Source: Streptomyces cadmiisoli
GTDB lineage: Bacteria; Actinomycetota; Actinomycetes; Streptomycetales; Streptomycetaceae
Length of the DNA stretch: 64,000 bases
Assembly: GCF_003261055.1 (NCBI RefSeq)
Contig: NZ_CP030073.1
Coordinates: 8,060,001 to 8,124,000, forward strand
Reading direction: 5' to 3'
Part shown: positions 13,565-31,486 of the stretch, one piece after another
Layout: every line of letters begins with the position of its first letter
How positions within the stretch are numbered: the first letter of the stretch is position 1
Notes under the pieces: generated by a model
What the model was told of the DNA's origin: nothing
Databases searched by the model: none
The model's input: the letters and a program-made list of their open reading frames with translations, nothing else
Program-made: the position numbers and the translations under genes

Positions 13565-13598
13565 ACTCCGGACCGCGGAGTATGTGACCGATCATTGG

Positions 13599-13620: not shown

Positions 13621-13725
13621 CTCTCGCGGTGTGCCGGTGCGGCGCACCGGTGCCGCACTCGGCGGATCGACGGCGGTGTGGTCATGAGCGATCGCATTCC
13701 CACCGTCCGGCAGGAGAACGAAGCC

Positions 13726-14423
13726 ATGACGACCACGCTCATCACCGGAGCCGACAAAGGACTCGGCCACGAGACCGTTCGCCGGCTCGTCGCCGCGGGC
13801 CACACGGTCTGCGTGAGCGCGCGGAACGCCGAGCCGGGCCGCCGCGCCGCCGACCTGCTGGGGGCGCGGTTCGTCCAGCTCGACGTCACCGACGACACCT
13901 CGGTCGCGGCCGCCGCGAAGACCGTCGAGGACGACGGCGGTCTCGACATGCTGTCAACAACGCCGGCATCGAGCCGCGCACGGCCGGCGGCGGCTTCGTC
14001 CCCGTCTCCGAGGTGACGGCCGACGCGGTCCGCGCCGTCCTCGAGACGAATGTGTTCGGACAGGTCCGCGTACTCCACGCGTTCCTCCCGCTCTCCGCCG
14101 CCCCGGTCGTGGTCGATGTCAGCAGCGGTGCTTCGCTGACACGGGACCCGGTGAACCCGGAGTCGCCCGCGCACTTCTACCCCGACATCGCGCACCCGTC
14201 GTCGAAGGCCGCGGTCAACATGCTCACGGTCCAGTACTCGAAAGCCCATCCCGCGATGCGGATCGACGCCGTGGATCCGGGGTTCACCGACACCGACCTG
14301 AACCACCACGCCGGTGACCAGACCGTCGAGGAGGGCGCCGAGATCATCGTGCGGATGGCCCGGATCGGACCGGACGGCCCGACCGGTGGCTTCTTCGACG
14401 CCCACGGGACCATTCCCTGGTAG
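13726..14423 (+). pseudogene. Frameshifted short-chain dehydrogenase/reductase
   Basis: Begins as a normal SDR (MTTTLITGADKGLGHETVRRL, Rossmann TGxxxGxG) behind CAGGAG. Near 13951-13955, where the family has DxLVNNAG, the sequence reads GACATGCTGTCAACAACGCC: one base (a G) is missing, and the rest of the protein (VNNAGIEPRT ... GGFFDAHGTIPW) continues in the next frame to 14423. In addition, the active-site YxxxK has become HPSSK (CAC for TAC), so even a restored frame would lack the catalytic Tyr. Two independent lesions point to real decay, although a sequencing error could explain the frameshift alone. Close intact relatives use NAD(P) to reduce or oxidise small carbonyl/alcohol compounds. 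Confidence 0.8.
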
Positions 14424-14471
14424 GTGGCGGGACCGGATCGATGTCCGAGACGACGAGCCGTCGGACCGGAG

Positions 14472-15362: not shown

Positions 15363-15403
15363 GGGGGCCTCCTGGTGGGTGGGGGTTTGCGGGCCGGTGC
15401 GGG

Positions 15404-16252: not shown

Positions 16253-16349
16253 GAGAAACCTCGTTCGTCATAGGAGAAGAAATGAGCGGGGTGCGCGAGG
16301 CGCGTGATTCCATCGTCTGCCGGACGCCCAGGACCAGCCAGGGAAGGAT

Positions 16350-17615: not shown

Positions 17616-17768
17616 GGAACGTCCTTCCCCGCACCGCCGGTGCCGGCTCTTCGGGCCGCCCGGGGCACTTCGCGATTTCAGGTGCACTCATGGTCGGCGC
17701 GGTCGGCGCGGGCATCCAGGCACATGTCTTCCTGGGCAGGCGAACCTGGGAAAGCCAGTACCAGGATC

Positions 17769-17804
17769 CGGAAATTCCGCGATGGGTGGCCGGCGGAAAT
17801 TCCG
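17769..17804. promoter_or_regulatory. Two direct copies of CGGAAATTCCG in the divergent promoter region
   Basis: The near-palindrome CGGAAATTCCG occurs at 17769-17779 and 17794-17804, start-to-start distance 25 bases, with similar flanks (C-CG-TGG after each). They sit in the 380-base gap between the MFS gene (-) and the oxidoreductase operon (+), where I see no gene. An operator for an unidentified regulator is likely. Confidence 0.5.
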
Positions 17805-17995
17805 TCGTGGAAAGGGAAGTTGCGGTCCGTGTGCGATCTGAGTCCCCGGACCGGGGCCGGGGGTTCGTCGGTGCCGCGGTTTCCTTGGATGGCGAGTGCG
17901 CCGACCCGGTTCTACCATCAAACAAATACTGCCCGAGTGATGAACGATTCCTGCCCATGCCTCGCCATGGCAAGCATCAATCGAATCGAGGCGCT

Positions 17996-18526
17996 ATGAA
18001 GCATGCCGAGACCGCGGCGCGCACCAGGGGAACGACATCAGAGATTCCGGACGTGGACGTCACGCTGAACATCAACGGCGAGTCGTACCGTCTGCGGTTC
18101 GACTCGCGCGTGACGCTGCTCGACGCCTTGCGAGATCACCTCGGGCTCACCGGGGCGAAGAAGGGCTGTGACCAGGGCGCTTGCGGTGCCTGCACGGTCC
18201 TGGTCGACGGGAAGCGCATCGTGGCCTGTCTCGCGTTGGCCGCTCAGTACGAAGGCCGCGAGATCACCACGATCGAAGGGCTCGCCGAGAACGGCGAGCC
18301 CCATCCGATGCAGGAGGCATTCGCCCGGCACGACGCGTTCCAGTGCGGCTACTGCACACCGGGGCAGATCATGTCGGCGGTGTCCTTGATGGCCGAGGGC
18401 CGGGCCGGCACCGACGACGACATCTGCGAGTACATGAGCGGCAACATCTGTCGTTGCGGGGCCTATCCCAATATTCGTGCGGCGATCCGCGAAGTGGTGA
18501 CGGAGGGAAACGATGCATCCCTTTGA
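17996..18526 (+). CDS. Molybdenum hydroxylase, 2Fe-2S subunit (PaoA/YagT type)
   Basis: 176-aa iron-sulfur subunit of a xanthine oxidase-family aldehyde oxidoreductase. The first [2Fe-2S] site is CDQGACGACTVLVDG (Cys about 62-70) with a later Cys at VACLAL; the second is QCGYCTPGQ with CRCGAYPNI. It passes electrons from the Mo site to FAD. The N-terminal extension (about 20 aa) has no twin-Arg export signal, unlike the periplasmic E. coli PaoA, so the enzyme is probably cytoplasmic. ATG at 17996 has GAGG upstream; ATG at 17957 is possible. It overlaps the FAD-subunit gene by 14 bases. Confidence 0.93.
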   Translation: MKHAETAARTRGTTSEIPDVDVTLNINGESYRLRFDSRVTLLDALRDHLGLTGAKKGCDQGACGACTVLVDGKRIVACLALAAQYEGREITTIEGLAENGEPHPMQEAFARHDAFQCGYCTPGQIMSAVSLMAEGRAGTDDDICEYMSGNICRCGAYPNIRAAIREVVTEGNDASL

Positions 18527-19502
18527 ATACGTCCGAATCGCCGACGCCGAACAGGCGGTCGCGGTGGTGACCGCGGACCCGGACGCGTCGTTTCTCGCCG
18601 GGGGCACCACACAACTGGATCTGATGAAGGACGGGGTGCTGGAGCCCGACCGGCTCGTCGACATCACGCGGCTGCCGCTGCGGGGCATCATGCACGGGGA
18701 GACGTCCGTGCATGTGGGTGCGCTGACGAGCATGGAGGAACTGGCGGCGGACACCCTGCTGCGCGAACGGCTCCCCTTCGTGCGTGAGGCGCTGCTGCTG
18801 GGCGCCTCCACTCAGTTGCGGAACATGGCCACCATCGGCGGCAACCTGTTGCAGCGTGCCCGCTGCCGGTACTTCCGCGACCCGACGGTCGCCGCGTGCA
18901 ACAAGCGCAGCCCCGGTTCGGGGTGTGCCGCGATCACCGGCAACCAGCACATGCACGCGATCCTGGGGACGAGCGAGCACTGCATCGCGCTGCACGCCTC
19001 GGACGTGGCGGTGCCCTTCGTCGCGCTGGACGCCGTGGTGCACGTGCAGGGCAGGAACGGCTCGCGGTCGATCCCCCTGACGCGGTTCTACCTCCCGCCG
19101 GGCACGACACCGCACATCGAGAACGTGCTGGAGCACGGTGAGCTGATCACCGAGGTCGAGATCCCGCTGCTGCCGGAAGGAACGAGGTCGCACTATCTCA
19201 AGGTGCGCGACCGCGTGTCCTACGAGTTCGCGCTGACCTCGGCCGGCGTGGCTCTGCTGCTGGACGGTGACACCGTCCGGGAGGCCCGCGTCGGTCTGGG
19301 CGGGGTGGGTACCGTCCCGTGGCGGGCCTGGGGTGCCGAAGAGGTGCTCCGCGGGGCCGCGGTGAGCGGTGAGACGTTCCGCGCGGCGGCCGAGGCGGCG
19401 CTGGAGGGAGCCAGGACGCTGCCCGGAATCGCGTTCAAGGTGGAGTTGGCCAAGCGCACCCTGGTGCGTGCGCTGGAGACCGTCGCGGGAGTTCCGTCAT
19501 GA
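18513..19502 (+). CDS. Molybdenum hydroxylase, FAD (and probable [4Fe-4S]) subunit (PaoB/YagS type)
   Basis: 329 aa. The N-terminal FAD-binding PCMH fold is marked by FLAGGTTQLDLMK (about 29-41) and TIGGNLLQRARCRYFRDP (about 108-125). The Cys residues in RARCRYFRD, ACNKRSPGSGC and SEHC correspond to the inserted [4Fe-4S] loop known in PaoB/YagS and 4-hydroxybenzoyl-CoA reductase-like proteins and absent from ordinary xanthine dehydrogenases. The C-terminus (GVGTVPWRAWGAEEVL) is the CO dehydrogenase flavoprotein C domain. Overlaps on both sides indicate a coupled operon. Confidence 0.92.
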   Translation: MHPFEYVRIADAEQAVAVVTADPDASFLAGGTTQLDLMKDGVLEPDRLVDITRLPLRGIMHGETSVHVGALTSMEELAADTLLRERLPFVREALLLGASTQLRNMATIGGNLLQRARCRYFRDPTVAACNKRSPGSGCAAITGNQHMHAILGTSEHCIALHASDVAVPFVALDAVVHVQGRNGSRSIPLTRFYLPPGTTPHIENVLEHGELITEVEIPLLPEGTRSHYLKVRDRVSYEFALTSAGVALLLDGDTVREARVGLGGVGTVPWRAWGAEEVLRGAAVSGETFRAAAEAALEGARTLPGIAFKVELAKRTLVRALETVAGVPS

Positions 19503-21709
19503 CCACTGTCGAAGGCGCTCGCACGGTCGTCGGTGCAGGGCTGGACCGTGTGGAAGCCCCACTGAAGGTCACGGGGTCGGCCCCCTACCCCAACGACTTC
19601 AGCTACCCGGGCATGGTGCACGCCGCCCTCGTGGGCAGCACGATCGCCGCGGGACGCATCCGCCGCATCGACGCGTCCGCGGCCCAGTCCGCTCCCGGCG
19701 TCCTCACGGTGATCACACATCTGACCGCGCCGCAGCTGGAACGCGGGCCGATGACGCTGCTCGGCCCGTCGCCGCCGGCGCCCATGCAGGACGACCGGAT
19801 TCTGCATTACGGCCAGCCCGTCGCCGTCGTCGTGGCCGCCAGTCTCGAACAGGCCCGGCACGCCGCCTCCCTGGTGCGGGTGGAGTACGAGCCGACCGAG
19901 GCGCTGCTGGACGTGGAGGATCCCCGGGCGGAGATCCTGGTCGATCCCTGGGGACTGGACACCGAGCGCGGCGACGTCGCGGCCGGGTTCGCCGCCGCGG
20001 ACGCCGTGGTCGAGGGCCGGTACACGACCCCTGACAACACCAACAACCCGCTCGGTCTGATGGCGACGATCGCATCCTGGCACGGTGACTCGCTGACGGT
20101 CCACGACTCCACCCAGTGGCCGCATAACGTACGCAACTCACTCGCCGCGATCTTCAAGATCCCCGAGAGCGGCATCCGGGTCCTCGCGCCGTACGTGGGC
20201 GGCGGCTTCGGCGCCGGCCTGCGGGTGTGGCCCCACACCGTGCTGACCGCGCTGGCCGCCCGCGAGGTCAGGCACCCGGTGAAGCTGGTGCTGACCCGGC
20301 CGCAGATGTTCACCTCGGTGGGACACCGGCCCAACAGCGTCCAGCACATCAAGATCGGCGTCACCGCGGCCGGCGACCTCGTCGCCATCGAGCACCGCGG
20401 CATCTCGTCGGTGGCGATGGAGGACGACGACTACGAGCCGGTCTCCCTCGGTTCGGCGGTCGCCTACACGTGCCCCAACGTGTTGACCCGTGACCGGCAG
20501 GCGCGGCTGAACGTCCCCTGCCCGGGGTCCATGCGCGCCCCCGCCGAGGGACAGGGGAACTTCGCCCTCGAGTGCGCCATCGACGAAGCGGCCCACGCCG
20601 TCGGCATGGATCCGCTGGAGTTCCGTCTGCGGAACTACACCGAGGTCCACCCCGTGCTCGGACTGCCCTGGTCGAGCAAGGCCCTGCGGGAGTGCTACAC
20701 GCGGGGCGCGGAACGGTTCGGCTGGTCCCGACGCACCCCGGAAACCGGGTCCATGCGCGACGGCCGCTGGCTGATCGGATACGGCATGGCCGGGGTGAGC
20801 TACCCCTTCTACCAGGTGCCCTGCCAGGCGCGGGTCTCCGTGCGCCGCGACGGGTCGGCCTTCGTGCGCAGCGCCGCCACCGACATCGGCACCGGGACTT
20901 ACACGGTGATGACGCAACTCGCCGCCGAGCTCCTCGGTCTGGACATCGACCGGGTCCGGTTCGACCTCGGGGACTCCGACATGCCCTACGCGCCGCAGGC
21001 CGGCGGTTCCGGTCTGACCGGGGCGCTGGGCAACGCGCTGCACACCGCGTGCGGCAACCTCGTCAGGGAGTTCCTCGAGATCGTCCGCGACGACGAGGCG
21101 TCGCCGCTGCGCGGTGCCGGCCCCGATGACGTGACGACGGGGGAGGGCCGTCTGTACCGTACCGACGCCCCCGACCGGGGCGAGAGCTTCACCGACATCC
21201 TCGGCCGGCACGGGCTCGAGGAGATCAGCGCCGACGGCCGGAGCACTCCGCCCGAGGCGCAGCAGCTGGGCAAGGCCACGGCCGGTGCCTTCGCGGCCAA
21301 GTTCGTGGAGGTGCGGATCGACCCCGGGCTGGGTCTGCTGCGGGTCACCCGGGCGGTCTCCGCCGTCGACGGCGGCCGGATCCTCAACGAGAAGACCGCC
21401 GCGAGCCAGATCGTCGGCGGCACCGTGGGCGGCATCAGTCAGGCCCTGTTCGAGGAGACCGCGACCGACCCCGGCACCGGACGTATCGCCAACGCGACCT
21501 TCGGCGACTACCTCGTGCCCGTCAACGCGGATGTTCCCGACATGGACGTCATCTTCTGCGGCGCGCCGGACCCGGCCAGCGCACTGGGTACCAAGGGCGT
21601 CGGAGAGATCGGACTGGTCGGCGTCGCGGCAGCCATCGGCAACGCGATCCACCACGCCACGGGCCGCCGTCTGCGCTCCCTCCCGTTCACGATCGACCAA
21701 CTCCTCTGA
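19499..21709 (+). CDS. Molybdenum hydroxylase, molybdopterin-binding catalytic subunit (PaoC/YagR type)
   Basis: 736 aa. The Ald_Xan_dh N-terminal domain (about 15-125) is followed by MoCoBD domains. Cofactor-contact stretches are visible: GGGFGAGLRVWPHT (about 222-235), PCPGSMRAPAEGQGNFALECAIDE (about 340-363), DIGTGTYTVMTQLAAELLG and QAGGSGLTGALG. The C-terminal ALGTKGVGEIGLVGVAAAIGNAIHHATG carries the catalytic Glu of this family (in GVGEIG). It oxidises an aldehyde or N-heterocycle to the acid with water-derived oxygen. ATG at 19499 overlaps the FAD subunit stop (ATGA). An IclR gene converges from the other side 18 bases downstream. No XdhC-type chaperone is encoded here. Confidence 0.93.
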   Translation: MTTVEGARTVVGAGLDRVEAPLKVTGSAPYPNDFSYPGMVHAALVGSTIAAGRIRRIDASAAQSAPGVLTVITHLTAPQLERGPMTLLGPSPPAPMQDDRILHYGQPVAVVVAASLEQARHAASLVRVEYEPTEALLDVEDPRAEILVDPWGLDTERGDVAAGFAAADAVVEGRYTTPDNTNNPLGLMATIASWHGDSLTVHDSTQWPHNVRNSLAAIFKIPESGIRVLAPYVGGGFGAGLRVWPHTVLTALAAREVRHPVKLVLTRPQMFTSVGHRPNSVQHIKIGVTAAGDLVAIEHRGISSVAMEDDDYEPVSLGSAVAYTCPNVLTRDRQARLNVPCPGSMRAPAEGQGNFALECAIDEAAHAVGMDPLEFRLRNYTEVHPVLGLPWSSKALRECYTRGAERFGWSRRTPETGSMRDGRWLIGYGMAGVSYPFYQVPCQARVSVRRDGSAFVRSAATDIGTGTYTVMTQLAAELLGLDIDRVRFDLGDSDMPYAPQAGGSGLTGALGNALHTACGNLVREFLEIVRDDEASPLRGAGPDDVTTGEGRLYRTDAPDRGESFTDILGRHGLEEISADGRSTPPEAQQLGKATAGAFAAKFVEVRIDPGLGLLRVTRAVSAVDGGRILNEKTAASQIVGGTVGGISQALFEETATDPGTGRIANATFGDYLVPVNADVPDMDVIFCGAPDPASALGTKGVGEIGLVGVAAAIGNAIHHATGRRLRSLPFTIDQLL

Positions 21710-21727: not shown

Positions 21728-22543
21728 CTACTTCCCGTTCCTGCGGCGCTGTTCGAAGTCGCGGATCTCGTCGATGGTGCGCAGCGGAACCGTGTCCTCG
21801 GCGGCGCCCAACTGCCGTGAGATCTGCGCAGCCGCGAGCGACATGGCCGAGACGACGAACGGCAGCCGGTCCGCGGAGAGGCGTCCCCTGGGAGCGGACA
21901 CGTGCACCGCGGCGCTGACGGAGCCGGCGGCGTCGACGATCGGCGTCGCCAGGCCGAGGATGCCCTCGACGCTCTCCCCGTCGCTGACGCTGTACGACCG
22001 GGCGCGAATGATCTCGTACTCGGTGCGCAGCCGCTCGCGGTCCACCAGGGTGTGCGGGGTGAACTGTTCGAGTCGGGCGGCCTGAAGGACCCGCTGCTCC
22101 AGGTCCGGGTTGTAGGCGGCCATCAGCTTGCCGACGCTGGAGCCGTGCAGGGGGCGGCCGCCGCCGAGCTTCATCACCACGGACAGGGTCTGCCCCGCCT
22201 CGTGCCGGTCGGCGTAGACGACGCTCGACCCGCTGCGCACGGCCAGATACGTGTTCTCGTTGATCTCCTCGCACAGGTCGGCGAGGTACGGCTGGCTGAC
22301 ATGCCGTAGATCGACACTGTCGACGATCGACAGCGCGAGGACGACCGACCGCGGTCCCAGCGCGTAGGTGCGCTGGCCCAGCATCTTCACCGCGTCCAGC
22401 CCGACGAGCGTCTGCAGCAGGTCGTGCGCGCTGCTCATCGGCAGCTCGAGATCGTCACTGAGGCGCTTGAGCGTGCACCCCTCCTGGTGCTGGGCCAGAT
22501 AACCCAGGATCCCCAGCGCCCTGTCGATGCGGGCCGGATTCAT
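21728..22543 (-). CDS. IclR-family transcriptional regulator
   Basis: 271 aa. The N-terminal winged HTH (about 5-65: RALGILGYLAQHQEGCTLKRLSDDLELPMSSAHDLLQTLV) is followed by the IclR effector domain (about 85-250: LCEEINENTYLAVRSGSSVVYADRHE, GGGRPLHGSSVGKLMAAY, ILGLATPIVDAAGSVSAAVHVSAP). It is transcribed away from the eight-gene CoA operon that starts at 22901; a perfect 20-bp palindrome at 22787-22806 lies between them. By family precedent it senses an intermediate of the operon's pathway; activation or repression cannot be read from sequence alone. Confidence 0.94.
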   Translation of the reverse strand: MNPARIDRALGILGYLAQHQEGCTLKRLSDDLELPMSSAHDLLQTLVGLDAVKMLGQRTYALGPRSVVLALSIVDSVDLRHVSQPYLADLCEEINENTYLAVRSGSSVVYADRHEAGQTLSVVMKLGGGRPLHGSSVGKLMAAYNPDLEQRVLQAARLEQFTPHTLVDRERLRTEYEIIRARSYSVSDGESVEGILGLATPIVDAAGSVSAAVHVSAPRGRLSADRLPFVVSAMSLAAAQISRQLGAAEDTVPLRTIDEIRDFEQRRRNGK

Positions 22544-22734
22544 CGACGACTCCTCTTTCTGCGGCGGTCGACGGGACCGGTACGCGTGCGCCGGCCGTCT
22601 CGGCAGAAACCCTATTCGAGTCCGGGTCCCACCCGGTGCGGGCTCTGCCCGTCGCCCGTTCCCCCTGCTCGGGCCTTTGGGGCGTCGAAGGAGCAGATGA
22701 GGCCCGCAGGAGGCGGGCCACGGGATCCGGCCTC

Positions 22735-22763
22735 TTGACGGCTCCTTGCTGCCTCCTTAGCAT
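22735..22763 (+). promoter_or_regulatory. Promoter of the bbs-like operon
   Basis: TTGACG (22735-22740), 17-base spacer, TAGCAT (22758-22763). It is the best sigma-70-like signal in the 357-base gap between the IclR gene and the transporter and points toward the operon. The 20-bp palindrome begins about 24 bases beyond the -10 box. No gene is seen in the rest of the gap. Confidence 0.55.
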
Positions 22764-22786
22764 CACTGCTACGTAAATGCGGAGTT

Positions 22787-22806
22787 AACTTCGAGATCTC
22801 GAAGTT
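22787..22806. promoter_or_regulatory. Perfect 20-bp palindrome, probable IclR operator
   Basis: AACTTCGAGATCTCGAAGTT is identical to its own reverse complement over all 20 bases. It lies downstream of the operon's -10 box, where a bound dimer would block transcription, and next to the only regulator gene of the locus. IclR-family proteins bind palindromes of about this length; the pairing is inferred. Confidence 0.65.
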
Positions 22807-22900
22807 TCTGGTGCCGATGCCCTCCGTCCGATGCCTCCGTCCGTGCCCGCAGCGGACGTCCGGCCGGACGGCAGCAAGATCCGGTTTCAAGGAGACACGC

Positions 22901-24235
22901 TTGTCCGAACAACTCGTGTCGATCGTCGCGTTGCTGGCGATCTTCCTGATAGGCACGCTTCGCGCCGTCAACCTCGGTGCTCTCGCCCTGGTCGCGTCGT
23001 TCGCCGTGGGGGCCGCGACGCTGGGGATGGAGACTCCCGAAGTGCTCGCGGGCTTTCCGGCCGAGCTGTTCGTGATCCTGGTCGGTGTCACCTACCTCTT
23101 CGCCATCGCCAGGAACAACGGCACGGTCGAGTGGCTCGTCCAGGCCGCCGTACGAGTCGTCGGCGGCAGGGTGGCCGCGATTCCCTGGGTGATGTTCACC
23201 ATCAGCTGCGTGCTCGTCTCGCTGGGCGCGGTCAGCCCGGCGGCCGTCGCGATCATCGCCCCGATCGGGATGACCTTCGCCGTCCGGTACGGCATCAACC
23301 CCCTGCTGATGGGCCTGATGGTCGTCCACGGCTCCGCCGCCGGGAACTTCTCCCCCATCGGAGTCCTGGGTGTCGTGACCAACGGTGTCGTCGACAGCAG
23401 CGGGATCGCCGGCGACCCGACCGTCCTGTTCCTGGCGAACCTGATCTTCAACGTGCTGCTGGGGGTCGGCATCTACCTGGCGTTCGGCGGCCGGCAGCTC
23501 ATGACCGTCGGAGTCAAGGGCTCCGACAGCGGCGGCACCGGAGGCACGTCCGGCCGCCGCGAGCCGCACCACTCGCCGTCCGGCACCACCACCGTCCTCG
23601 CCACCGAGCCGCCGCAGACCGCCGTCACCGACGGGCTGTCGCTGAACCGGGACCGCGTCGTCACCCTGTGCAGCATGGTCGCGCTCGTCGTCGGCGCCCT
23701 GGTGTTCGACCTCGACGTCGGGCTGATGTCCCTGACCGCGGCCGTGCTGCTGACCCTTCTGTCACCCGGCAGCGCCAAGGACGCCGTCAGCCAGATCAAC
23801 TGGGGTGTCGTGCTGCTGGTGTGCGGCATCGTCACCTACGTCGCGCTGATGCAGGAGATGGGCACCGTCGAGTACCTCGGCGACGCGATCTCCGAGGTGG
23901 ACGCCCCGCTCCTGGCCGCCCTGCTGATCTGCTACATCGGCGCCGTCGTGTCGGCCTTCGCCTCGACGACCGGGATCCTCGGCGCGCTCATCCCGCTGGC
24001 CGTACCGCTGCTCGCCACCGGCCAGGTCAGCGCGATCGGTCTGGTGGCCGCCCTGTCCATCTCCTCCTCGGTCGTGGACAGCAGCCCCTTCTCCACCAAC
24101 GGCGCCATGGTGGTCGCCAACGCTCCCAAGGAACAACAGGCCATGGTCTATCGGCAACTCATGAAGTGGGGCTTCGGCCTCGTCCTGGCCGCACCGGTCG
24201 TCAGCTGGGCCGCGCTCACGGTGGTGGCGGGGTGA
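22901..24235 (+). CDS. MatC-like dicarboxylate transporter
   Basis: 444-aa integral membrane protein with about 11-12 hydrophobic segments and a hydrophilic central loop (residues about 205-245, rich in Ser/Gly/Thr). The N-terminal half (GALALVASFAVGAATLGMETPEVLAGFP) matches the MatC_N dicarboxylate carrier type, and the C-terminal ASTTGILGALIPL and SSSVVDSSPFSTNGA match the DASS/ArsB-like ion-transporter fold with SNTG-like motifs. The start is TTG at 22901, 6 bases after AAGGAG. It is the first gene of the CoA operon and its stop overlaps the next start (GTGA). A dicarboxylate substrate is inferred and agrees with downstream CoA-transfer from succinyl-CoA. Confidence 0.85.
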   Translation: MSEQLVSIVALLAIFLIGTLRAVNLGALALVASFAVGAATLGMETPEVLAGFPAELFVILVGVTYLFAIARNNGTVEWLVQAAVRVVGGRVAAIPWVMFTISCVLVSLGAVSPAAVAIIAPIGMTFAVRYGINPLLMGLMVVHGSAAGNFSPIGVLGVVTNGVVDSSGIAGDPTVLFLANLIFNVLLGVGIYLAFGGRQLMTVGVKGSDSGGTGGTSGRREPHHSPSGTTTVLATEPPQTAVTDGLSLNRDRVVTLCSMVALVVGALVFDLDVGLMSLTAAVLLTLLSPGSAKDAVSQINWGVVLLVCGIVTYVALMQEMGTVEYLGDAISEVDAPLLAALLICYIGAVVSAFASTTGILGALIPLAVPLLATGQVSAIGLVAALSISSSVVDSSPFSTNGAMVVANAPKEQQAMVYRQLMKWGFGLVLAAPVVSWAALTVVAG

Positions 24236-25449
24236 CGACCGTGAACGCCACGACGCCCCTCACCCCGCTCGACGGCATCCGGGTCGTCGACCTCAGCACC
24301 GGCCTCGGCACCTACGCGGGACGGCTGTTCGCCGATCTGGGAGCCGACGTCATCAAGGTCGAACCAGCGGGCGGCGCCCCCGAACGGGCCGTCCCCCCGC
24401 TCACCGAGGGGGGCCTGAGCCTCGCCTTCGCCTTCACCGAGGCCGGCAAGCGCAGCGTGATCCTCGAAGGGTCCGACGCCGACCGGGCCGAGCAGTTGGA
24501 GAACCTGCTCGGCACGGCACAGGTCCTGCTCACCAGTGAGGGGCCGGGACGGCTGCGCGAGCGCGGTCTGCGCCCGGCGGACGTCACGCGGCGGCACCCG
24601 GCGCTGGTCCATGTGTCCATCAGCCCCTTCGGCCTCACCGGGCCCTGGGCCGACCGCCCCGCCTCCGACCTCACCCTGCTCGCCGCGGGCGGCCTGCTCG
24701 CGCTGGCCGGGGACCCCGACCTGCCGCCCGTCCGCGCTTGGGGCAACCAGACCTCGATCATCTCGGGCGTGCACGCCGCCACGGCCGCCCTGATCGCCGT
24801 ACTGGTCCTGGAGGAGACGGGACGCGGACAGATCGTGGACGTCTCGGCGCAGGAAGCCGTGGCCCATTCGCTGGAGAACGCCGTGCAGTACGTCGACCTG
24901 GAGCAGTCCGTGCGCCACCGCGTCGGGTCGGGTCCGGTGGAAGCCGGTACCGGGCTGTTCGCCTGCTCGGACGGGTGGGTCTACCTGGTGGGCGGCCTCG
25001 GCGGACTGCCCCTCGCCTGGAACGCGATCACCGAGTGGCTGGAGGGCGCCGGTGTCGCGGGCGCCGCGACGCTGCGCGAGCCCCGCTGGCTGGCGCGCGA
25101 CTGGCGGCGCAGCGCCGAGGGGGTGCGTACGTTCCGGGATCTCTTCGAGCGTTTCGCGGCGCCGCGCACGAAGCGGGAGCTGTACGAGGACGGGCAGAGC
25201 AGGGGCATCAGCATCGCCCCCGTCTCGACGCCGGACGATCTCCTGGCCAGCCCGCAGCTGGTCGAACGCGGCTTCTTCCGCCCGATGACGGTCGACGGCA
25301 GGACCCTCGCCTTCCCGGGTTCCCCCTACCGCTTCGAGGGTCTCGACGTCGCGCCCGGCATCCCCCCGGCACGACCGGGCGCCGACACACGGGCCGTGCT
25401 GGACGCGCTGCCCGCGGCCGCCCGAACCACCGCACACAGCAAGGAGTAG
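24232..25449 (+). CDS. Family III CoA-transferase, subunit with catalytic Asp (BbsF/BbsE-like partner 1)
   Basis: 405 aa CaiB/BaiF-type. N-terminal LDGIRVVDLSTGLGTYAGRLFADLGADVIKVEP (about 11-43) is the CoA-binding Rossmann start. The active-site region reads GPWADRPASDLTLLAAGGL, retaining the Asp that forms the acyl-anhydride in family III transferases. GRGQIVDVSAQEAVAHSLENA and the C-terminal GADTRAVLDAL fit the family. The next gene is a second, clearly different CaiB protein that has Gly at this Asp position, so the two may form a heteromer, as known for benzylsuccinate CoA-transferase BbsEF. GTG at 24232 overlaps the transporter stop. Confidence 0.9.
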   Translation: MTTVNATTPLTPLDGIRVVDLSTGLGTYAGRLFADLGADVIKVEPAGGAPERAVPPLTEGGLSLAFAFTEAGKRSVILEGSDADRAEQLENLLGTAQVLLTSEGPGRLRERGLRPADVTRRHPALVHVSISPFGLTGPWADRPASDLTLLAAGGLLALAGDPDLPPVRAWGNQTSIISGVHAATAALIAVLVLEETGRGQIVDVSAQEAVAHSLENAVQYVDLEQSVRHRVGSGPVEAGTGLFACSDGWVYLVGGLGGLPLAWNAITEWLEGAGVAGAATLREPRWLARDWRRSAEGVRTFRDLFERFAAPRTKRELYEDGQSRGISIAPVSTPDDLLASPQLVERGFFRPMTVDGRTLAFPGSPYRFEGLDVAPGIPPARPGADTRAVLDALPAAARTTAHSKE

Positions 25450-25452
25450 CCG

Positions 25453-26670
25453 ATGTCCTCCCGACTGCCGCTCGAAGGGGTGCGCGTCGCCGACTTCACC
25501 TGGGTCGGTGCCGGGCCCTTCCTGACCAAACCGCTCGCCGACCACGGCGCCGACGTCATCAAGATCGAATCACGGACCCGCACGGACCCCATCCGCAGCA
25601 TGGCGCCGTTCCGCGACGGCCGCCCCGGCCCGAACCGCAGCGGCTACTTCGCCAACCGCAATTCGAGCAAGCGCTCCGTCTGCCTGGACCTCAAGTCCCC
25701 TCGGGGCAAGGAACTGGCGCTCGACCTGATGGCCAGGAGCGACGTCGTCGCCAGCAACTTCACACCCGGCACCATGGACCGGCTCGGGCTGGGCTACCAG
25801 GACGCCGTCGCGGTGAAGCCGGACATCGTGTACCTCGAAATGCCCATGCAGGGAAACACCGGGCCGCACCGGGACTTTCGCGGTTACGGCCTGACCATCG
25901 CGGCGGCCGGCGGGCTGCTGGGTCTCACCGGCCACCCCGAGCGGCCGCCGGTCGGAACGGGGACCAACTACCCCGACCACGTGCCCAACCCCCTGCACGC
26001 CGCCGTCGCGGTACTCGCGGCTCTGCGCCGCCGGCGCCGGACCGGCCAGGGCCAGTACATCGAGCTCGCGCAACTGGAGTCGACCACCAACGTCATCGGC
26101 CCCGCGCTGCTGGCGGCGGCGGCCGGCCGGCGCGTCGACCGCTCGGCCAACGAGGACGGCGCCGCAGCCCCGCACGGCGTCTACCCGTGTGCGGGGGAGG
26201 ACCGCTGGTGCGCCGTCGGCGTGTTCACCGACCAGCAGTGGCAGGCCCTGGTCGAGGTGCTCGGCGCTCCGGAATGGGCGGCGAAACCCGGTCACACCAC
26301 GCCGGGCGGCCGCTGGGCGGCCCGACGGGAACTCGACGCGCTCGTCGCCGACGCCACCTCGACCTGGGAAGCGTCGGAACTGGCCGACGCCCTGAGCGCC
26401 GCGGGAGTTCCGGCGGCGGTCGTCAGCGACGCGGCGCAGATCCTCGCGGATCCCCAGCTGAACGCGCGCGACCACTGGAAGACCCTGGAGCACCCCGAGA
26501 TGGGCTCCAGCGTGTACGACAACATCCCCTACCGGCTGTCCGAGACCCCTGGCCACCTTCGCGGGCCGGCCCCTGTGCTGGGCGCCGACACCCGCGACGT
26601 CTGCCTGGACCTGCTGGGACTGACACCGGACGAGTACGAGCACCTCGCAGCACAAGGAGTCGTGGGCTGA
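25453..26670 (+). CDS. Family III CoA-transferase, subunit lacking the catalytic Asp (partner 2)
   Basis: 405 aa CaiB/BaiF-type: LEGVRVADFTWVGAGPFLTKPLADHGADVIKIES (about 7-40), NRNSSKRSVCLDLKSPRGKELALDLMARSDVV, then the active-site segment TGPHRDFRGYGLTIAAAGGLLGL where the expected Asp after Gly-Tyr is Gly. RTGQGQYIELAQLESTTNVI and GADTRDVCLDLLGL complete the fold. Three bases separate it from the partner gene. In the heteromeric BbsEF enzyme one subunit lacks the catalytic Asp and plays a structural role; the same split is inferred here. An alternative is two independent homodimeric transferases, with this one using another residue or inactive. Confidence 0.9.
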   Translation: MSSRLPLEGVRVADFTWVGAGPFLTKPLADHGADVIKIESRTRTDPIRSMAPFRDGRPGPNRSGYFANRNSSKRSVCLDLKSPRGKELALDLMARSDVVASNFTPGTMDRLGLGYQDAVAVKPDIVYLEMPMQGNTGPHRDFRGYGLTIAAAGGLLGLTGHPERPPVGTGTNYPDHVPNPLHAAVAVLAALRRRRRTGQGQYIELAQLESTTNVIGPALLAAAAGRRVDRSANEDGAAAPHGVYPCAGEDRWCAVGVFTDQQWQALVEVLGAPEWAAKPGHTTPGGRWAARRELDALVADATSTWEASELADALSAAGVPAAVVSDAAQILADPQLNARDHWKTLEHPEMGSSVYDNIPYRLSETPGHLRGPAPVLGADTRDVCLDLLGLTPDEYEHLAAQGVVG

Positions 26671-26671
26671 C

Positions 26672-27475
26672 ATGGCCATCGAGACAGAGCGCGCCGGCCG
26701 GACCCTGGTCGTCCGGCTCAACCGCCCGGAAGCGCTGAACGCCCTGGACGTCGAGGCGATGCGCGCCCTCAACCAGGTCCTGCGCGACTTCCGCGACGAC
26801 CCGACGCTCGCCGTCGGCATCATCACCGGCACCGGTGACCGTGCCTTCTGCACGGGCGCGGACCTGAAGAAGACGCTTCCCCCGCAGACCTCCTTCGCAC
26901 AGGCGTACTTCGCGCCCTACGAGCAGAGCGTCGACGACGGTCTGTACGTACGGGCCATCACGCTCAGCGAACTGAACATCGGCAAGCCGCTCATCGCCGC
27001 CGTCAACGGGCACGCGCTGGGGGGCGGAGCCGAGATCGCACTCGACTGCGATCTGCGGATCGCCAGTGAGAACGCCACGTTCGGCCTGCCGGAGGCCCGT
27101 TGGGCGAGTGTGCCCGCGGTGGGCGGGGTCTCCAAGCTGCTGCGCGCGGTCCCGCGGGCCGTGGCGATGAAGATGATCCTCACCGGTGACCGCATCGGCG
27201 CCGAGGAGGCCCACCGCGTCGGCCTCGTCAGCGACCTCGTCCCGGCCGAGGACCTGCTGCCCGCGGCCCTGAAGCTGGCCGACCGGATCACCGCCAACGG
27301 ACCCCTCGCGATCAAGAGCCTGAAGGCTCTCGCCGACCGCACCCAGGACATGCCCCTGACCCAGTCCGTGGCCGTCGAACAACTCCTGTGGGGTGTCCTG
27401 CGAGACACCGACGACCGGGTGGAGGGACGGACCGCTTTCGCCGAGCGGCGTCCCCCCGAGTACCACGGCCGCTGA
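26672..27475 (+). CDS. Enoyl-CoA hydratase (BbsH-like position)
   Basis: 267-aa crotonase-fold protein. The CoA oxyanion region reads GTGDRAFCTGADLKK (about 52-66) and NGHALGGGAEIALDCDLRIAS (about 111-131). Both catalytic glutamates of hydratases are present: GGGAEIA and FGLPEARW. C-terminal PLAIKSLKAL is typical. It would add water to the double bond of the CoA-activated substrate. It starts 2 bases after the CoA-transferase stop codon and precedes the Zn-ribbon/thiolase pair. No acyl-CoA dehydrogenase that would make its substrate is encoded in this operon. Confidence 0.93.
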   Translation: MAIETERAGRTLVVRLNRPEALNALDVEAMRALNQVLRDFRDDPTLAVGIITGTGDRAFCTGADLKKTLPPQTSFAQAYFAPYEQSVDDGLYVRAITLSELNIGKPLIAAVNGHALGGGAEIALDCDLRIASENATFGLPEARWASVPAVGGVSKLLRAVPRAVAMKMILTGDRIGAEEAHRVGLVSDLVPAEDLLPAALKLADRITANGPLAIKSLKALADRTQDMPLTQSVAVEQLLWGVLRDTDDRVEGRTAFAERRPPEYHGR

Positions 27476-27501
27476 AGCGGCCCGAGGAAGGACAAGAACC
27501 C

Positions 27502-27939
27502 ATGTCAGCATCCCCGACACCCGCGGTGGCCCGCCAGGTCGGCGCCGCCTGGACCCAGCAGGACGGTGAGCGCACCACCCTCACCGTCACCGTCTGCCGT
27601 GCCTGCGCCGGCCGCTGGTTCCCGCCCCGCGACACCTGCTCGACCTGCGCCTCCGACGATGTGGAGGACGTCACCAGCGACACCCGCGGCACCGTCTACG
27701 CCTCCAGCGTCGTCAGGACCGCCCCGCGCGGCTTCCAGGCGCCCTACGTGCTGGCGTACGTCGACATCAGCGGTGTCCGCATTCTCGCCCACAGCCCCTC
27801 GTCCGACCGTGCCCTGACCCCCGGCACCGAGGTGGAACTGACGGTCGCACCGATCGCCGACTCCGCCGAAGGCGCGGTCCTGTCCTACGCCGTGACCCCG
27901 ATCGACGACCAGCCCGCACCCACCGGAGAACAGCGATGA
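27502..27939 (+). CDS. DUF35 Zn-ribbon/OB-fold protein (BbsA-like thiolase partner)
   Basis: 145 aa. Rubredoxin-like Zn ribbon CRACAGRWFPPRDTCSTC (about 31-48; two CxxC knuckles) followed by an OB fold (about 60-125: GTVYASSVVRTAPRGFQAPYVLAYVDI). DUF35 proteins pair with thiolase-fold partners; in BbsAB the Zn-finger subunit is an integral part of the thiolase, and in steroid catabolism related proteins partner an aldolase. Its stop overlaps the thiolase start (ATGA), supporting a fixed 1:1 complex. Confidence 0.92.
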   Translation: MSASPTPAVARQVGAAWTQQDGERTTLTVTVCRACAGRWFPPRDTCSTCASDDVEDVTSDTRGTVYASSVVRTAPRGFQAPYVLAYVDISGVRILAHSPSSDRALTPGTEVELTVAPIADSAEGAVLSYAVTPIDDQPAPTGEQR

Positions 27940-29078
27940 AGCCCGTCCATGTCGCCGGCGCCGCCGTCCACCCCTTCGGCAAGCACCGCGACCTCAACGC
28001 GGCCGAGCTCGGCCACCGTGCCGTCCGCGCCCTGCTCGACACGACGGGGATCACCCCGGACGCCGTGGACACCGGTTTCGTCGGCTCGTCCTACGGCGGT
28101 TCCCTGCTGGCCCAGCGGATCCTGCAGCGCGTGGGCGTGTCGGGGCAACCCGTCTTCACCGTGGAGAACGCCTGCGCGAGCGGCGCGTCCGCGGTGCATC
28201 TCGCCTGGCAGGCGGTGGCCTCCGGTGCCGCGCAGGCCGTGATCGCGGTGGGCGCAGAGAACCTGTCGGGCTTCGGCGGGGGCACCTTGCCCCTGACGAC
28301 CAATGACATCGAGATCGAGCAGGGCGTCATCATGCCCGCCGCCTACGCCATGCGCGCCCAGCGCTATCTGCACGACTTCGGTGCCACGGTGGACGATCTG
28401 ACCGCGGTCTCCGTGAAGAACCGGGCCAACGGCGCCGACAACGAGCGGGCGCACTTCCAGCGCGAGATCTCCGCACAGGACGTCGCCGAGTCCCGGCCCG
28501 TCGCCGACCCGCTCCGCCTGCTGCACTGCTGCCCCAACAGCGACGGCGCCGCCGCGGTGCTGCTGTGCTCCGAGGAGTTCGCCGCGCAGCTGGACACGCC
28601 GAGCGTCCGGCTCCGCGCCAGCGTGGTCCGCTCCGGCACCTTCCACACCCAGTACCGGGACATGACATGGCCCGACATCACCGAGCGCACCGCGAAGGCG
28701 GCCTACGCGATGGCGGGACTGGGCCCGGCCGACCTCGACCTGGTCGAGCTGCACGACGCCTTCAGCATCGCCGAGCTCCTGCACTCCGAGGCGCTCGGCC
28801 TCGTCGAGCGCGGCAAGGCGTACCAGGCCGTGCGCGACGGTGAGTTCGACCGGCACGGCCGGGTCGCGGTCAGCCCGAGCGGCGGCCTGATGTCCCGCGG
28901 CCACCCGGTGGGCGCCACCGGAACCACCCAGATCTGCGAGGCGTACTGGCAGCTCACCGGCCAGGCGGGCGCGTTGCAGGTGCCCGGCGCCTCCGTGGCG
29001 CTCACCCATGTGACGGGTGGCGGCATCTTCGGTGTCGACAACGGTGCTTGCTCCGTGCACATCCTCACCGCCGACTGA
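27936..29078 (+). CDS. Thiolase/lipid-transfer-type acetyl-CoA acyltransferase (BbsB-like)
   Basis: 380 aa. Nucleophile Cys in VENACASGASAV (near residue 85) and active-site His in MSRGHPVGATG (near 328) are present. The C-terminal CxG motif of ordinary thiolases is replaced by HVTGGGIF, as in SCP2/lipid-transfer-like thiolases and in Zn-finger-partnered enzymes. It probably cleaves a 3-oxoacyl-CoA with CoA, producing succinyl-CoA and/or an acyl-CoA if the route parallels Bbs. It is coupled to the DUF35 gene upstream; two SDR genes follow. Confidence 0.9.
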   Translation: MKPVHVAGAAVHPFGKHRDLNAAELGHRAVRALLDTTGITPDAVDTGFVGSSYGGSLLAQRILQRVGVSGQPVFTVENACASGASAVHLAWQAVASGAAQAVIAVGAENLSGFGGGTLPLTTNDIEIEQGVIMPAAYAMRAQRYLHDFGATVDDLTAVSVKNRANGADNERAHFQREISAQDVAESRPVADPLRLLHCCPNSDGAAAVLLCSEEFAAQLDTPSVRLRASVVRSGTFHTQYRDMTWPDITERTAKAAYAMAGLGPADLDLVELHDAFSIAELLHSEALGLVERGKAYQAVRDGEFDRHGRVAVSPSGGLMSRGHPVGATGTTQICEAYWQLTGQAGALQVPGASVALTHVTGGGIFGVDNGACSVHILTAD

Positions 29079-29091
29079 AAGGCCCAGTTCG

Positions 29092-29715
29092 ATGTCCGCC
29101 CCACTCACCTCCCGTCGCGCCCTCGTCCTGGACCCGGCCGGCACCGCCACGGCGAGCGCCATCACGACCCGTCTGAAGTCGGCGGGTCACGTCGTCGAGA
29201 CCCACGCGGTCTTCGCCGATCCCACCGGCCCGGTCGACGCGTTCGTCTACGAACCCGGCCTCCTGGACGGCACACCCACCCGCAACTCCGCCGAGCGGCT
29301 GCTCACCGTCGTGTCACGGCTGACCCCCTTCCTGCGCACACCCGAGGAGGGCGGGTCCCGGATCGTGGTCGTCGCGAGCCGTGACGGCCTCGGCTGGCCG
29401 AGCCGGCCGGAACTGGCGGCGCAGAGCGGTGCGCTCGTCTCCGCGGCACGCAGCCTCGCGCTGCAGCTGGGCCGTACGGGCACCACGGTGAACGTGGTCT
29501 CCGCGCTGCCCCCGCAGGGCAGTCCCCTGCGCGCGGCCGGACGCCCCGAGAACACGCACCTGTACGAGCCCGAGGCGCTGACCCCGCAGCCGGTCACCGT
29601 GGACGACATCGCGGAGACCACCGCCTTCTTCCTGGACTCCCGCAGCGGCTACATCACCGGCCAGGTGCTCAACTGCTGCGGCGGCGCGAGTCTTCTGTCG
29701 AGCCTCTCCGTCTAG
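29092..29715 (+). CDS. Degenerate SDR-fold protein, probable non-catalytic partner (BbsC-like)
   Basis: 207 aa, shorter than classical SDRs. It keeps the overall fold pattern (RALVLDPAG strand, SRIVVVASRDGLG in place of the Ser strand, a helix with SAARSLALQLGRTGTTVNVV, C-terminal SGYITGQVLNCCGG). The nucleotide-binding TGxxxGxG reads DPAGTATAS, NNAG is missing, and YxxxK reads LAAQS, so neither cofactor binding nor catalysis is expected. An intact SDR follows 32 bases later. In the toluene pathway the BbsCD dehydrogenase is a heteromer of an inactive BbsC and an active BbsD subunit; this pair looks the same. Confidence 0.82.
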   Translation: MSAPLTSRRALVLDPAGTATASAITTRLKSAGHVVETHAVFADPTGPVDAFVYEPGLLDGTPTRNSAERLLTVVSRLTPFLRTPEEGGSRIVVVASRDGLGWPSRPELAAQSGALVSAARSLALQLGRTGTTVNVVSALPPQGSPLRAAGRPENTHLYEPEALTPQPVTVDDIAETTAFFLDSRSGYITGQVLNCCGGASLLSSLSV

Positions 29716-29747
29716 GACCCACCATGATCAATACCGAAGGACACACC

Positions 29748-30506
29748 ATGGATCTCGACGGACAGGTCGCGGTGGTCACCGGCGGAGCCAGCGGCATCGG
29801 CTGGGCCATCGCCCGCGACTTCGCCGCAGCCGGCGCGAAGGTGGCGATAGCCGACATCGACGAGGAACGGGCCCGGACCGCGGCCCGGGAGATCGCCGAC
29901 ACCGGTGCCACGGCCGTCGGGCTGCCCGTCGACGTCAGCTCGCGCGCGGCGGTCACCGGACTGTTCGCCGCGGTCGACGCGCAACTCGGCCCGGTGGACA
30001 TCCTCGTCAACAACGCGGGCATCAGCGTCGACCGGGGAGTCCGCCGCATCACGGACGAGGAGTGGGACCGGACGCAGGCCATCAACCAGACCGGCGTGTT
30101 CCTGTGCAGCCAGGCCGCGGCCGGCTCCATGATCCCCCGTCGTACCGGGCGCATCATCAACATCGCCTCCCGGGCCTGGCTCGGCTGGTACGGGCAGCTC
30201 GCCTACGCCACCTCCAAGGGCGGCGTGGTCTCCGCCACACGGTCCCTCGCCATCGAGCTGGCGAAGTACGGCATCACCGTGAACTGCCTGGCGCCCGGAC
30301 TGATCGACACACCGCTGCTGCGCCGGGAACCGCAGGAGGTCATGGACCGGCTCCTGACGGCACAGCCCATGGGGACGATCGGTGCCCCGGCCGACGTCGC
30401 CTGGGCCGCCCACTACTTCGCGGGTCCCGCCAGCCGTGCCGTCACCGGTCAGGTGATGTACGTCTGCGGCGGCAAGAGCCTCTACGCCCAACCGGCCAGG
30501 GGCTGA
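29748..30506 (+). CDS. SDR dehydrogenase, active subunit (BbsD-like 3-hydroxyacyl-CoA dehydrogenase)
   Basis: 252 aa classical SDR: VTGGASGIGWAIA (about 11-23), Asp near 37 (IADIDEER) favouring NAD, NNAGIS (about 87-92), catalytic Ser in NIASRAWLG, YATSKGGVV (Tyr about 152, Lys about 156), and the C-terminal AVTGQVMYVCGGKSL. It would oxidise the 3-hydroxyacyl-CoA made by the hydratase. ATG at 29748 has GAAGGA 6 bases upstream; ATG at 29724 (eight residues longer) is possible. It is the last gene of the operon; a strong hairpin follows at 30659. Confidence 0.93.
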   Translation: MDLDGQVAVVTGGASGIGWAIARDFAAAGAKVAIADIDEERARTAAREIADTGATAVGLPVDVSSRAAVTGLFAAVDAQLGPVDILVNNAGISVDRGVRRITDEEWDRTQAINQTGVFLCSQAAAGSMIPRRTGRIINIASRAWLGWYGQLAYATSKGGVVSATRSLAIELAKYGITVNCLAPGLIDTPLLRREPQEVMDRLLTAQPMGTIGAPADVAWAAHYFAGPASRAVTGQVMYVCGGKSLYAQPARG

Positions 30507-30639
30507 ACCGGCCGGCACGCCGAGGGCAGTTCGACGATGCCTGTGCGGCGTGTCCTCGATCTCCGGTTCATTTCGTTCTCCCCGTTCTCCCGTTCTCCTC
30601 GCACCCCGTTTCCGTTCCGGAGACACGGATGAGGATTCG

Positions 30640-30690
30640 GTGTTCCGGAACACGGCCCGGCCGTGTGCGGACTTCGGTCCGTGCGCGGCC
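30640..30690 (+). terminator. Palindrome plus UUCG-loop terminator hairpin after the bbs-like operon
   Basis: GTGTTCCGGAACAC (30640-30653) is a perfect 14-base palindrome. Directly after it, 30659-30672 pairs with 30677-30690 over 14 positions (three G-U in RNA) closed by a TTCG tetraloop inside CGGAC-TTCG-GTCCG, a very stable terminator shape. The remaining bases from 30507 to 30841 show no supportable gene. Confidence 0.7.
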
Positions 30691-30841
30691 GGGCCGCTCC
30701 GTTCGGCGGCCGCCCGTGCCGTCTGCCGCCGTTCGTCTGTGATGAGGCCAACAGAAAGCGGAGGGGTGCCTCGGGTTATTGTGGCCGAGTGAATATGAGG
30801 TACCCCTCGATTTCATTGCTCCCTTCGACGGGAGCGATCCG

Positions 30842-31486
30842 GTGAGCTCGGTCGGCATACGCCCTCGTCGAGTGCGTCACCGGACGGAACCCGACCCCGG
30901 ACCGACGCGGGAGACGGCCGTGCGGCGGCCGGCCCGCGACGCCGCGGCGGCAGCGGGCGCCGCCCTGATCCCCGCAGTGCTCCTGGCCATGAACGGGAAC
31001 CCGGCGGTCTCCGCCGTCCAGACCGTCGCCCACTGGCCCCTGATGGCACTGACCCTGTTCTGGACGGCCCAGCGGCGCCAGGACCTCTACGCCCGCGGCG
31101 CCCTGGCCCTGCTGCTGGCCAGCGCCGCGGGCTTCGGCGTCTTCGCCTCGACCCGGCCGTGGTCGCCGCATGAGACAGCGCTCATCGAGGGCTATCTGGA
31201 CATGCCCGGTGTGCGAGCGAGCTGGTACGTGCTGACGGCACTCGTGCTGGGCGCCGCCGTCACGGCGGCCTGGGCCCGTGCCGCTGTCGTGGCGGTGATC
31301 GCGCTGGTCGTCGCCTCGGCGGCGCTCACCGCGGAACGCCCAGTGCTCGGCGCACTGCTGGCCGGTGGCGTGCCGGTGCTGGCCTGGCAGGCCACGGCGC
31401 TCCTGCCTGACCGGCGTCCCGACCGCAGGCACGCCCGCGGCGCGTCGCCCGGCGCGGACTCCACGGCGCACCGGCAGGTGGACTGA
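30842..31486 (+). CDS. Small integral membrane protein of unknown function
   Basis: About 214 aa beginning at GTG 30842 with GGGAG 7 bases upstream; a GTG at 30779 is in frame but has a poorer site. The first 45 residues are Arg-rich and cytoplasmic-like. Hydrophobic segments follow: AAAAAGAALIPAVLLAM, ALALLLASAAGFGVFA, YVLTALVLGAAVTAAW, AVVAVIALVVASAAL and VLGALLAGGVPVLAW. No catalytic motif is recognised. It ends 2 bases before a DedA-family gene, so the two may be co-transcribed. Confidence 0.6.
   Translation: MSSVGIRPRRVRHRTEPDPGPTRETAVRRPARDAAAAAGAALIPAVLLAMNGNPAVSAVQTVAHWPLMALTLFWTAQRRQDLYARGALALLLASAAGFGVFASTRPWSPHETALIEGYLDMPGVRASWYVLTALVLGAAVTAAWARAAVVAVIALVVASAALTAERPVLGALLAGGVPVLAWQATALLPDRRPDRRHARGASPGADSTAHRQVD

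Follow-up and report, generated by a model that had tools for sequence, protein, structure and literature searches.

The window analysed here is a 64,000-nucleotide stretch of Streptomyces cadmiisoli (contig NZ_CP030073.1, forward-strand positions 8,060,001 to 8,124,000; host genome 10.24 Mb in two contigs), and its subject is an operon that resembles the benzylsuccinate beta-oxidation (Bbs) operon of anaerobic toluene degraders. Eight packed genes on one strand (window positions 22901–30506) run in the order T-E-F-H-A-B-C-D, letters that we assigned after the names of the Bbs proteins, and diverge from a regulator gene. The features, in window positions, are as follows.

21728–22543, minus strand: IclR-family regulator, divergent from the operon (IclR_C, 2e-36; HTH_IclR)
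22735–22763, plus strand: promoter-like sequence of the operon, TTGACG-17-TAGCAT
22788–22805, no strand assigned: palindromic operator ACTTCG-N6-CGAAGT, candidate IclR site, 12/12 specified bases
22901–24235, plus strand: T, dicarboxylate carrier of 444 amino acids, MatC_N/CitMHS (MatC_N, 1.7e-55)
24232–25449, plus strand: E, BbsE-like subunit of a family III coenzyme A (CoA) transferase, without the catalytic Asp
25453–26670, plus strand: F, BbsF-like catalytic CoA-transferase subunit, with the Asp in GTGTNYPDH
26672–27475, plus strand: H, BbsH-like enoyl-CoA hydratase, 45% identical to BbsH and in the BbsH clade
27502–27939, plus strand: A, BbsA-like DUF35 Zn-ribbon/OB protein (NCBIfam BbsA, 4.4e-15), four Cys kept
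27936–29078, plus strand: B, BbsB-like thiolase, best PDB match 7pxp_C, ENAC and GHP motifs kept
29092–29715, plus strand: C, BbsC-like truncated short-chain dehydrogenase/reductase (SDR) pseudoenzyme, without the Tyr/Lys and TGxxxGxG, tail SSLSV
29724–30506, plus strand: D, BbsD-like intact SDR, best PDB match 7pcs_B, with Ser-Tyr-Lys and TGGASGIG

The intervals between the eight genes measure -4, 3, 1, 26, -4, 13 and 8 bases. The layout proposed in the initial annotation, an IclR gene divergent from an ordered and tightly packed operon, was borne out, with every gene where it had been placed and small corrections of starts: the DUF35 gene begins at 27502 and the short SDR at 29092 (207 amino acids), and the carrier probably starts at the TTG at 22901, preceded by AAGGAG. 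Pfam and NCBIfam profiles recovered IclR, a MatC_N/CitMHS carrier, two CoA_transf_3 proteins, ECH_1, zf-ChsH2 with OB_ChsH2_C, a thiolase, one partial SDR and one full SDR across the cluster.

Comparison with proteins of known structure tied four subunits to their Bbs counterparts. The best PDB match was 9fn0_A, a benzylsuccinate CoA-transferase subunit, for E (3.2e-68; runner-up 5.6e-31), 9fn0_B for F (2.4e-97; runner-up 5.4e-54), benzoylsuccinyl-CoA thiolase 7pxp_C for B (1.5e-84; runner-up 6.6e-60) and BbsD 7pcs_B for D (2e-66; runner-up 1.8e-53), the 9fn0 chains being assigned as BbsE and BbsF by which of the two Aromatoleum proteins, E or F, they match. With the cognate Bbs subunit ranking first in all four cases, the bbs-like enzyme set originally claimed held, as did the pairing of two unequal CoA-transferases, one of the E type and one of the F type. 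A was matched best by another DUF35 protein, 6esq_E, slightly ahead of BbsA (7pxp_A), and H by generic hydratases only. Identity to the Aromatoleum Bbs proteins (L050) was 40% for E, 42% for F, 45% for H, 29% for A, 44% for B and 46% for D. The distribution of catalytic residues among the subunits follows that of Bbs: the Asp of the YPDH motif, which we take to be the catalytic residue of family III CoA-transferases, is kept in F, and the alignment has a gap at that place in E and likewise in BbsE, giving the pattern of a heteromeric CoA-transferase. If the operon instead served generic degradation of fatty acids or steroid side chains and resembled Bbs by chance, it would share the DUF35-thiolase pair, which is found in steroid side-chain cleavage as well (6ok1 matches); however, the thiolase favours Bbs by 287 versus 101 bits, and a CoA-transferase pair in place of a ligase, an SDR pair with a pseudoenzyme and a dicarboxylate carrier also argue against this explanation, which we regard as very improbable.

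The SDR pair combines a putative pseudoenzyme with an intact partner. C lacks the catalytic Tyr, the Lys and TGxxxGxG in 12/12 aligned loci (the window and 11 relatives, described below), and D carries Ser-Tyr-Lys and the glycine motif in the same 12, in agreement with the degenerate and intact SDRs first noted; the pair of locus L010 is known from tblastn matches alone. At ~200 amino acids, C is ~40 residues shorter than BbsC. It ends in SSLSV (SSMSV in L001), BbsC proteins end in SMSI, SMSV or SMSM, and D proteins terminate differently. C paralogues of L015, L023, L027 and L028 have intact catalytic motifs and end in SSLSV, so that a common tail unites the intact C of Firmicutes, the degenerate BbsC and the truncated C of Actinobacteria; we read this as a single C lineage whose catalysis may have been lost stepwise. 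Inactive pseudoenzyme subunits have been published for BbsCD, according to a title cited in PMC10818641. By sequence, the best PDB match of C was BbsD 7pcs_B (8.3e-13), ahead of BbsC (6e-8); an AlphaFold model of C (predicted local distance difference test score, pLDDT, 83) gave BbsC 7pcs_A as the top Foldseek match (1.2e-9, template-modelling (TM) score 0.65), the next match at 5.5e-9 leaving a modest margin. Of 3948 candidates in a search that admitted lengths of 114–362 amino acids, 107 were C homologues at 1e-10, with lengths of 117–224 amino acids.

A search for related loci yielded at least 80; ten of them (L001–L010), together with L105 (Rhodococcus opacus plasmid pLPS8), G701, G734 and the window, make up one lineage of 14 loci. 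They come from eight genera (Streptomyces, Arthrobacter, Kribbella, Prauserella, Nocardioides, Mycolicibacterium, Amycolatopsis and Rhodococcus), one unplaced metagenome-assembled genome (MAG) and two further genomes, L002 and L003 being two loci of one strain. E, F, H, A and B are present in 14/14 loci, and C and D in all except L009, a contig fragment with E-F-H-A-B only. E-F-H-A-B-C-D is contiguous on one strand in nine loci (the window, L001–L005, L007, L008 and G734); in four (L006, L010, L105 and G701) E is divergent beside the IclR gene, with F-H-A-B-C-D on the opposite strand. The IclR orthologue beside the operon in relatives is 61–81% identical. Because the same set recurs in 14 loci, its association is more than chance. 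Homologues of E and B bear the names of many more Streptomyces, Amycolatopsis, Rhodococcus, Mycolicibacterium and Nocardioides (names taken from the best 120 of 559 for E and the best 120 of 1873 for B), and many homologues are already labelled BbsE by the Joint Genome Institute (JGI), so the Bbs resemblance itself is not new. None of 198 other Streptomyces genomes had a locus as similar as those within the lineage, and a single distant match (42%) was found there; 393 other genomes of the class gave one distant match only (41%) and 244 other genomes of the Nocardioides family gave none, and the 297 sampled genomes of the Prauserella family provided two new loci, G701 and G734. Locus L011 (E 52%, F 57% and H 60% identical) was placed outside the lineage because its thiolase is of another kind and no C/D pair was found. 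Among the open-access titles and abstract openings listed, none described such an operon in aerobes.

Phylogenies extended the relation to Bbs for three of the enzymes. In a tree of 79 thiolases, with outgroups solely from the loci found, the lineage B proteins (13 rows) with L015 beside them (support 94) are sister to the Bbs and Firmicute Bbs thiolases (support 95), and the whole group (support 89) is separate from 37 thiolases that belong to other E/F clusters; five further rows, including a second R. opacus thiolase, adjoin it, and the nearest host paralogue of B is 39% identical. D groups with BbsD and Firmicute SDRs against other SDRs, and H falls in one clade with BbsH, L011 and L017 (support 97).

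The missing component is the acyl-CoA dehydrogenase BbsG, which is encoded in 23 of 25 Bbs-type loci (21 Bbs-type and four Firmicute Bbs-type), the exceptions being L067, whose contig ends after F, and L015. Searching with BbsG by tblastn at 1e-8 returned nothing in 13/14 lineage loci (flanks up to 10–20 kb; 3.8 kb for L009); the remaining locus, G701, has a 30%-identical acyl-CoA dehydrogenase ~10 kb from the operon and outside the BbsG clade. The earlier observation that the cluster has no BbsG was thereby confirmed. The further statement that the operon encodes exactly the bbs functions was too strong, because this core enzyme is missing near the operon across the lineage and not in the window alone. 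A saturated alkyl- or arylsuccinate could nevertheless be the substrate if a dehydrogenase encoded elsewhere replaces BbsG: acyl-CoA dehydrogenases can have a broad range, and thirty stretches of the host genome match BbsG. Yet the best of these is only 38% identical and unlinked, 7.7 Mb from the operon, and in a tree containing the 12 best of the thirty and 20 BbsG rows longer than 330 amino acids, none of the 12, which entered the tree twice under two labels with no effect on the clade, joins the BbsG clade. By comparison, BbsG-like genes of other aerobic E/F clusters are mostly 45–50% identical, and all other enzymes of the pathway have been kept together when this one has not. Supply of the dehydrogenase from elsewhere, as the initial annotation had it, was therefore not demonstrated, and we give a saturated substrate somewhat less than an even chance. 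Bbs-type beta-oxidation is known as the sequel to oxygen-sensitive fumarate addition. PF02901 (PFL-like) had no matches in the host genome, with 3/14 control genomes positive, which agrees with the reported lack of a glycyl-radical benzylsuccinate synthase, and a substrate other than benzylsuccinate is supported as probable.

The intergenic region carries the conserved palindrome listed above. None of 394 equally long random windows was as good as the window's operator (null windows here and below come from the same locus and may include other true sites), and a match of at least 10/12 bases lies beside the IclR gene in 12/13 loci, with L006 as the exception and L009 without the region. The operator is just downstream of the promoter-like site, which is the sole promoter-like match in 22400–31000 (mean 0.3 in shuffles), and by eye TTGAC stands at a similar place in the intergenic sequences of L001, L002, L004 and L007. 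The palindrome is thus a probable IclR site. Exact copies in the host genome number three, the window's own and a pair at C1:162770 and C1:9106585 that are mirror images near both chromosome ends, which suggests terminal inverted repeats; by eye, the genes around the C1:162770 site seemed unrelated. Deriving a regulon from the host genome by pattern was abandoned as too noisy: with one mismatch allowed, the pattern gave 52 sites and the reversed control 22. Further sites in relatives precede a major facilitator superfamily (MFS) gene and a second carrier in L105 (random windows as good, 4/396 and 25/396) and a transporter-aldehyde dehydrogenase pair in L001 (14/378). Separately, a small gene and an SDR-like gene in Arthrobacter L002:4601–6133 are possible extra regulon members, an operator-like sequence (11/12) preceding them at 6116.

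The same operator marks a neighbouring operon in part of the lineage. Genes for a hydroxyacid dehydrogenase (HADH), an aldehyde dehydrogenase (ALDH) and a TcuA-like flavoprotein adjoin the cluster in L006, L010, L105 and G701, each preceded by the operator (random windows as good, 0/389, 0/388, 5/395 and 12/394, respectively), and ALDH-TcuA occurs on other contigs in both Arthrobacter genomes; the site count leaves out these two contigs, which begin inside or just before ALDH. The FAD_binding_2 proteins of L010 and L105 have TcuA as their best NCBIfam family at 350.5 and 336.2 bits, below the cut-off of 369. A TcuA-like protein (66–75% identity) was found in 4/9 genomes searched, and in G701 too, and at 1e-30 none was found in the window genome or in four of the other eight; with 4/9 genomes having it and 5/9 lacking it, it is an optional part of the regulon. 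Tricarballylate, the substrate of tricarballylate utilisation, is itself a substituted succinate. That system likewise involves a TcuA-family flavoprotein, here in the shared regulon of several relatives, and differs in that the window genome has no TcuA and the relatives' TcuA is linked to genes for CoA-dependent cleavage. The double bond could accordingly be introduced into the free acid, ahead of CoA transfer, leaving BbsG unneeded: in relatives, HADH, ALDH and the TcuA-like flavoprotein would yield the unsaturated acid, and in loci of the window type T would import an unsaturated itaconate- or alkylidene-succinate-like acid. Besides the shared operator and gene neighbourhood, this route is favoured by the desaturation of tricarballylate to cis-aconitate by Salmonella TcuA, according to a title cited in PMC10468695. 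However, the distribution of TcuA-like proteins shows that it is not general, the active-site residues were not clearly kept in an alignment with fumarate reductase, and the G701 operator is weak. We hold the free-acid route to be a credible possibility, clearly short of even.

Upstream of the regulator lies a PaoABC-like molybdenum (Mo) hydroxylase trio (~17993–21709), for which PaoC is the best NCBIfam family at 590 bits, below the cut-off of 1180. It might catalyse the first step, from aldehyde to acid: the trio is also adjacent in Kribbella (64–72%) and lies ~7 kb downstream in S. albiflavescens, and aldehyde dehydrogenases stand beside the cluster in L001, L006, L007, L010, L105 and G701. 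Nevertheless, no operator was found upstream of the trio in the window or Kribbella (random windows as good, 396/396 and 351/384), close orthologues (≥77%) occur in 11/294 other Streptomyces, including S. albiflavescens, none of the six of these 11 genomes screened for the operon has it, and a second S. albiflavescens copy sits in another block. Being without an operator and common without the operon, the Mo-hydroxylase was rejected as a core part, and its role as first step is unlikely. The surrounding block at 10839–21709, judged by protein starts, recurs ~30 kb from the operon in S. albiflavescens and comprises an alpha/beta hydrolase, an Acyl-CoA_dh_2 flavoprotein of the acyl-CoA-dehydrogenase fold, a TetR-like protein, SDRs and the trio. 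Elsewhere in the window, outside the operon, 48120–49142 encodes a PALP-family pyridoxal-phosphate enzyme.

Several findings weigh against reading the cluster as an IclR-controlled, Bbs-like degradation operon. NCBIfam BbsA and BbsB are the best families for A and B at scores far under their cut-offs (56 versus 250 bits and 325 versus 750 bits), and BbsG is absent from the operon. C is nearer BbsD (37%, 126 columns) than BbsC (28%, 145 columns), and a long-branched tree (C branch length 3) does not group it with BbsC. In midpoint-rooted trees, E joins L011 and then L090, L104, L080 and L108, with 41 other rows on the Bbs side, and F joins L011 and L017 and then 42 other aerobic rows before Bbs. 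Allowing two mismatches, the operator is no commoner in the window than by chance (3 versus a mean of 1.8), so that support for it comes from the perfect site and from how well that site is conserved. The initial annotation had named placement of the CoA-transferases, thiolase/DUF35 and SDRs in unrelated clades as the outcome that would speak against it; the thiolase, the intact SDR and the hydratase group with Bbs, and the CoA-transferases, although of true E and F type by PDB match, are not tied by their trees to the anaerobic Bbs set in particular. Since B, D and H appear Bbs-like in descent and E/F belong to a wider family, the operon, on these trees, is a sister system to Bbs and not a member of it.

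This placement agrees with comparison of whole gene sets. The bbs operons of Aromatoleum, Desulfosarcina and Peptococcaceae share the E/F pair with Asp in F only, the hydratase, the DUF35/thiolase pair and the SDR pair with inactive C; here, in contrast, there is no BbsG and no benzylsuccinate synthase (Bss), the gene order is T-E-F-H-A-B-C-D under IclR control, C is truncated to ~200 amino acids and identity is 29–46%. The host genera of the lineage are aerobic, unlike anaerobic toluene degraders. E/F-H-thiolase clusters of Betaproteobacteria and some Actinobacteria (L026, L025 and L011, the last being nearest in the E, F and H trees) share the E/F pair and hydratase, but have another thiolase (~30%), no C/D pair and in many cases a BbsG-like dehydrogenase. 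Six Alcaligenaceae clusters (L026, L021, L029, L049, L051 and L064) have the order E-F-H-G with a BbsG-like dehydrogenase (47–50%), the other thiolase (~30%) and no C/D pair found. On R. opacus pRop44186_a, the cluster of L104 includes a distant E/F pair (39%); its annotation also lists a cytochrome P450, a mycofactocin-coupled SDR, an AMP-binding protein and three acyl-CoA dehydrogenases. The Alkalihalobacillus macyae MAG locus L015 (139–15776) resembles the lineage in its A-B-C-D-E-F-H set, the lack of BbsG in the 16 kb examined, its sister thiolase and a MatC-like carrier (34%), and differs in the intact catalytic motifs of C and in nearby electron-transfer-flavoprotein-like and PrpD-like genes (named by eye); its F is split in two frames, and a PAS-like gene is also present (by eye).

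The CoA transfer from succinyl-CoA, hydration, oxidation and thiolysis of the Bbs route are established, as set out in PMC10818641. By analogy, we consider it probable that the operon, under IclR control, serves to import a 2-substituted succinate-type acid and to degrade it by aerobic beta-oxidation, with chemistry parallel to that of benzylsuccinate. The likeliest substrate is a 2-substituted succinate or an alkylidene-succinate, from which cleavage would give succinyl-CoA and an acyl-CoA; lignan- and dibenzylsuccinate-type substrates were considered, with no supporting evidence and no paper found in a single search. The reactions and regulation, as predicted from the observed gene identities, subunit asymmetry, conservation and operator, would begin with import of the acid by T and transfer of CoA onto it from succinyl-CoA by E/F. 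H would then hydrate the alpha,beta-double bond, C/D would oxidise the hydroxyl to a ketone, with D catalytic and C a structural pseudo-subunit, and A/B would cleave the ketone with CoA to the acyl-CoA and succinyl-CoA, the latter priming the following CoA transfer. The double bond might come from a distant acyl-CoA dehydrogenase, from a TcuA-like free-acid dehydrogenase (relatives only) or from import of an unsaturated or hydroxylated acid (window type). The IclR protein is probably a repressor that acts by occupying the palindrome, which lies just downstream of the promoter-like site.

More tentatively, and with greater doubt than confidence, these loci may represent a widespread, undescribed pathway by which aerobic Actinobacteria degrade a natural itaconate or substituted succinate, the acid being desaturated by a TcuA-like enzyme or taken up unsaturated ahead of CoA transfer, so that Bbs chemistry proceeds with no acyl-CoA dehydrogenase; the same proposal includes a record of BbsC passing from intact (Firmicutes) to inactive (other anaerobes) to a truncated scaffold with its C-terminal tail (Actinobacteria). 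The C series offers a natural case of pseudoenzyme evolution, and the conserved operator a direct handle on the inducer and regulon. A conserved, regulated aerobic version of the Bbs route with neither the radical enzyme nor BbsG implies a so far unnamed soil substrate.

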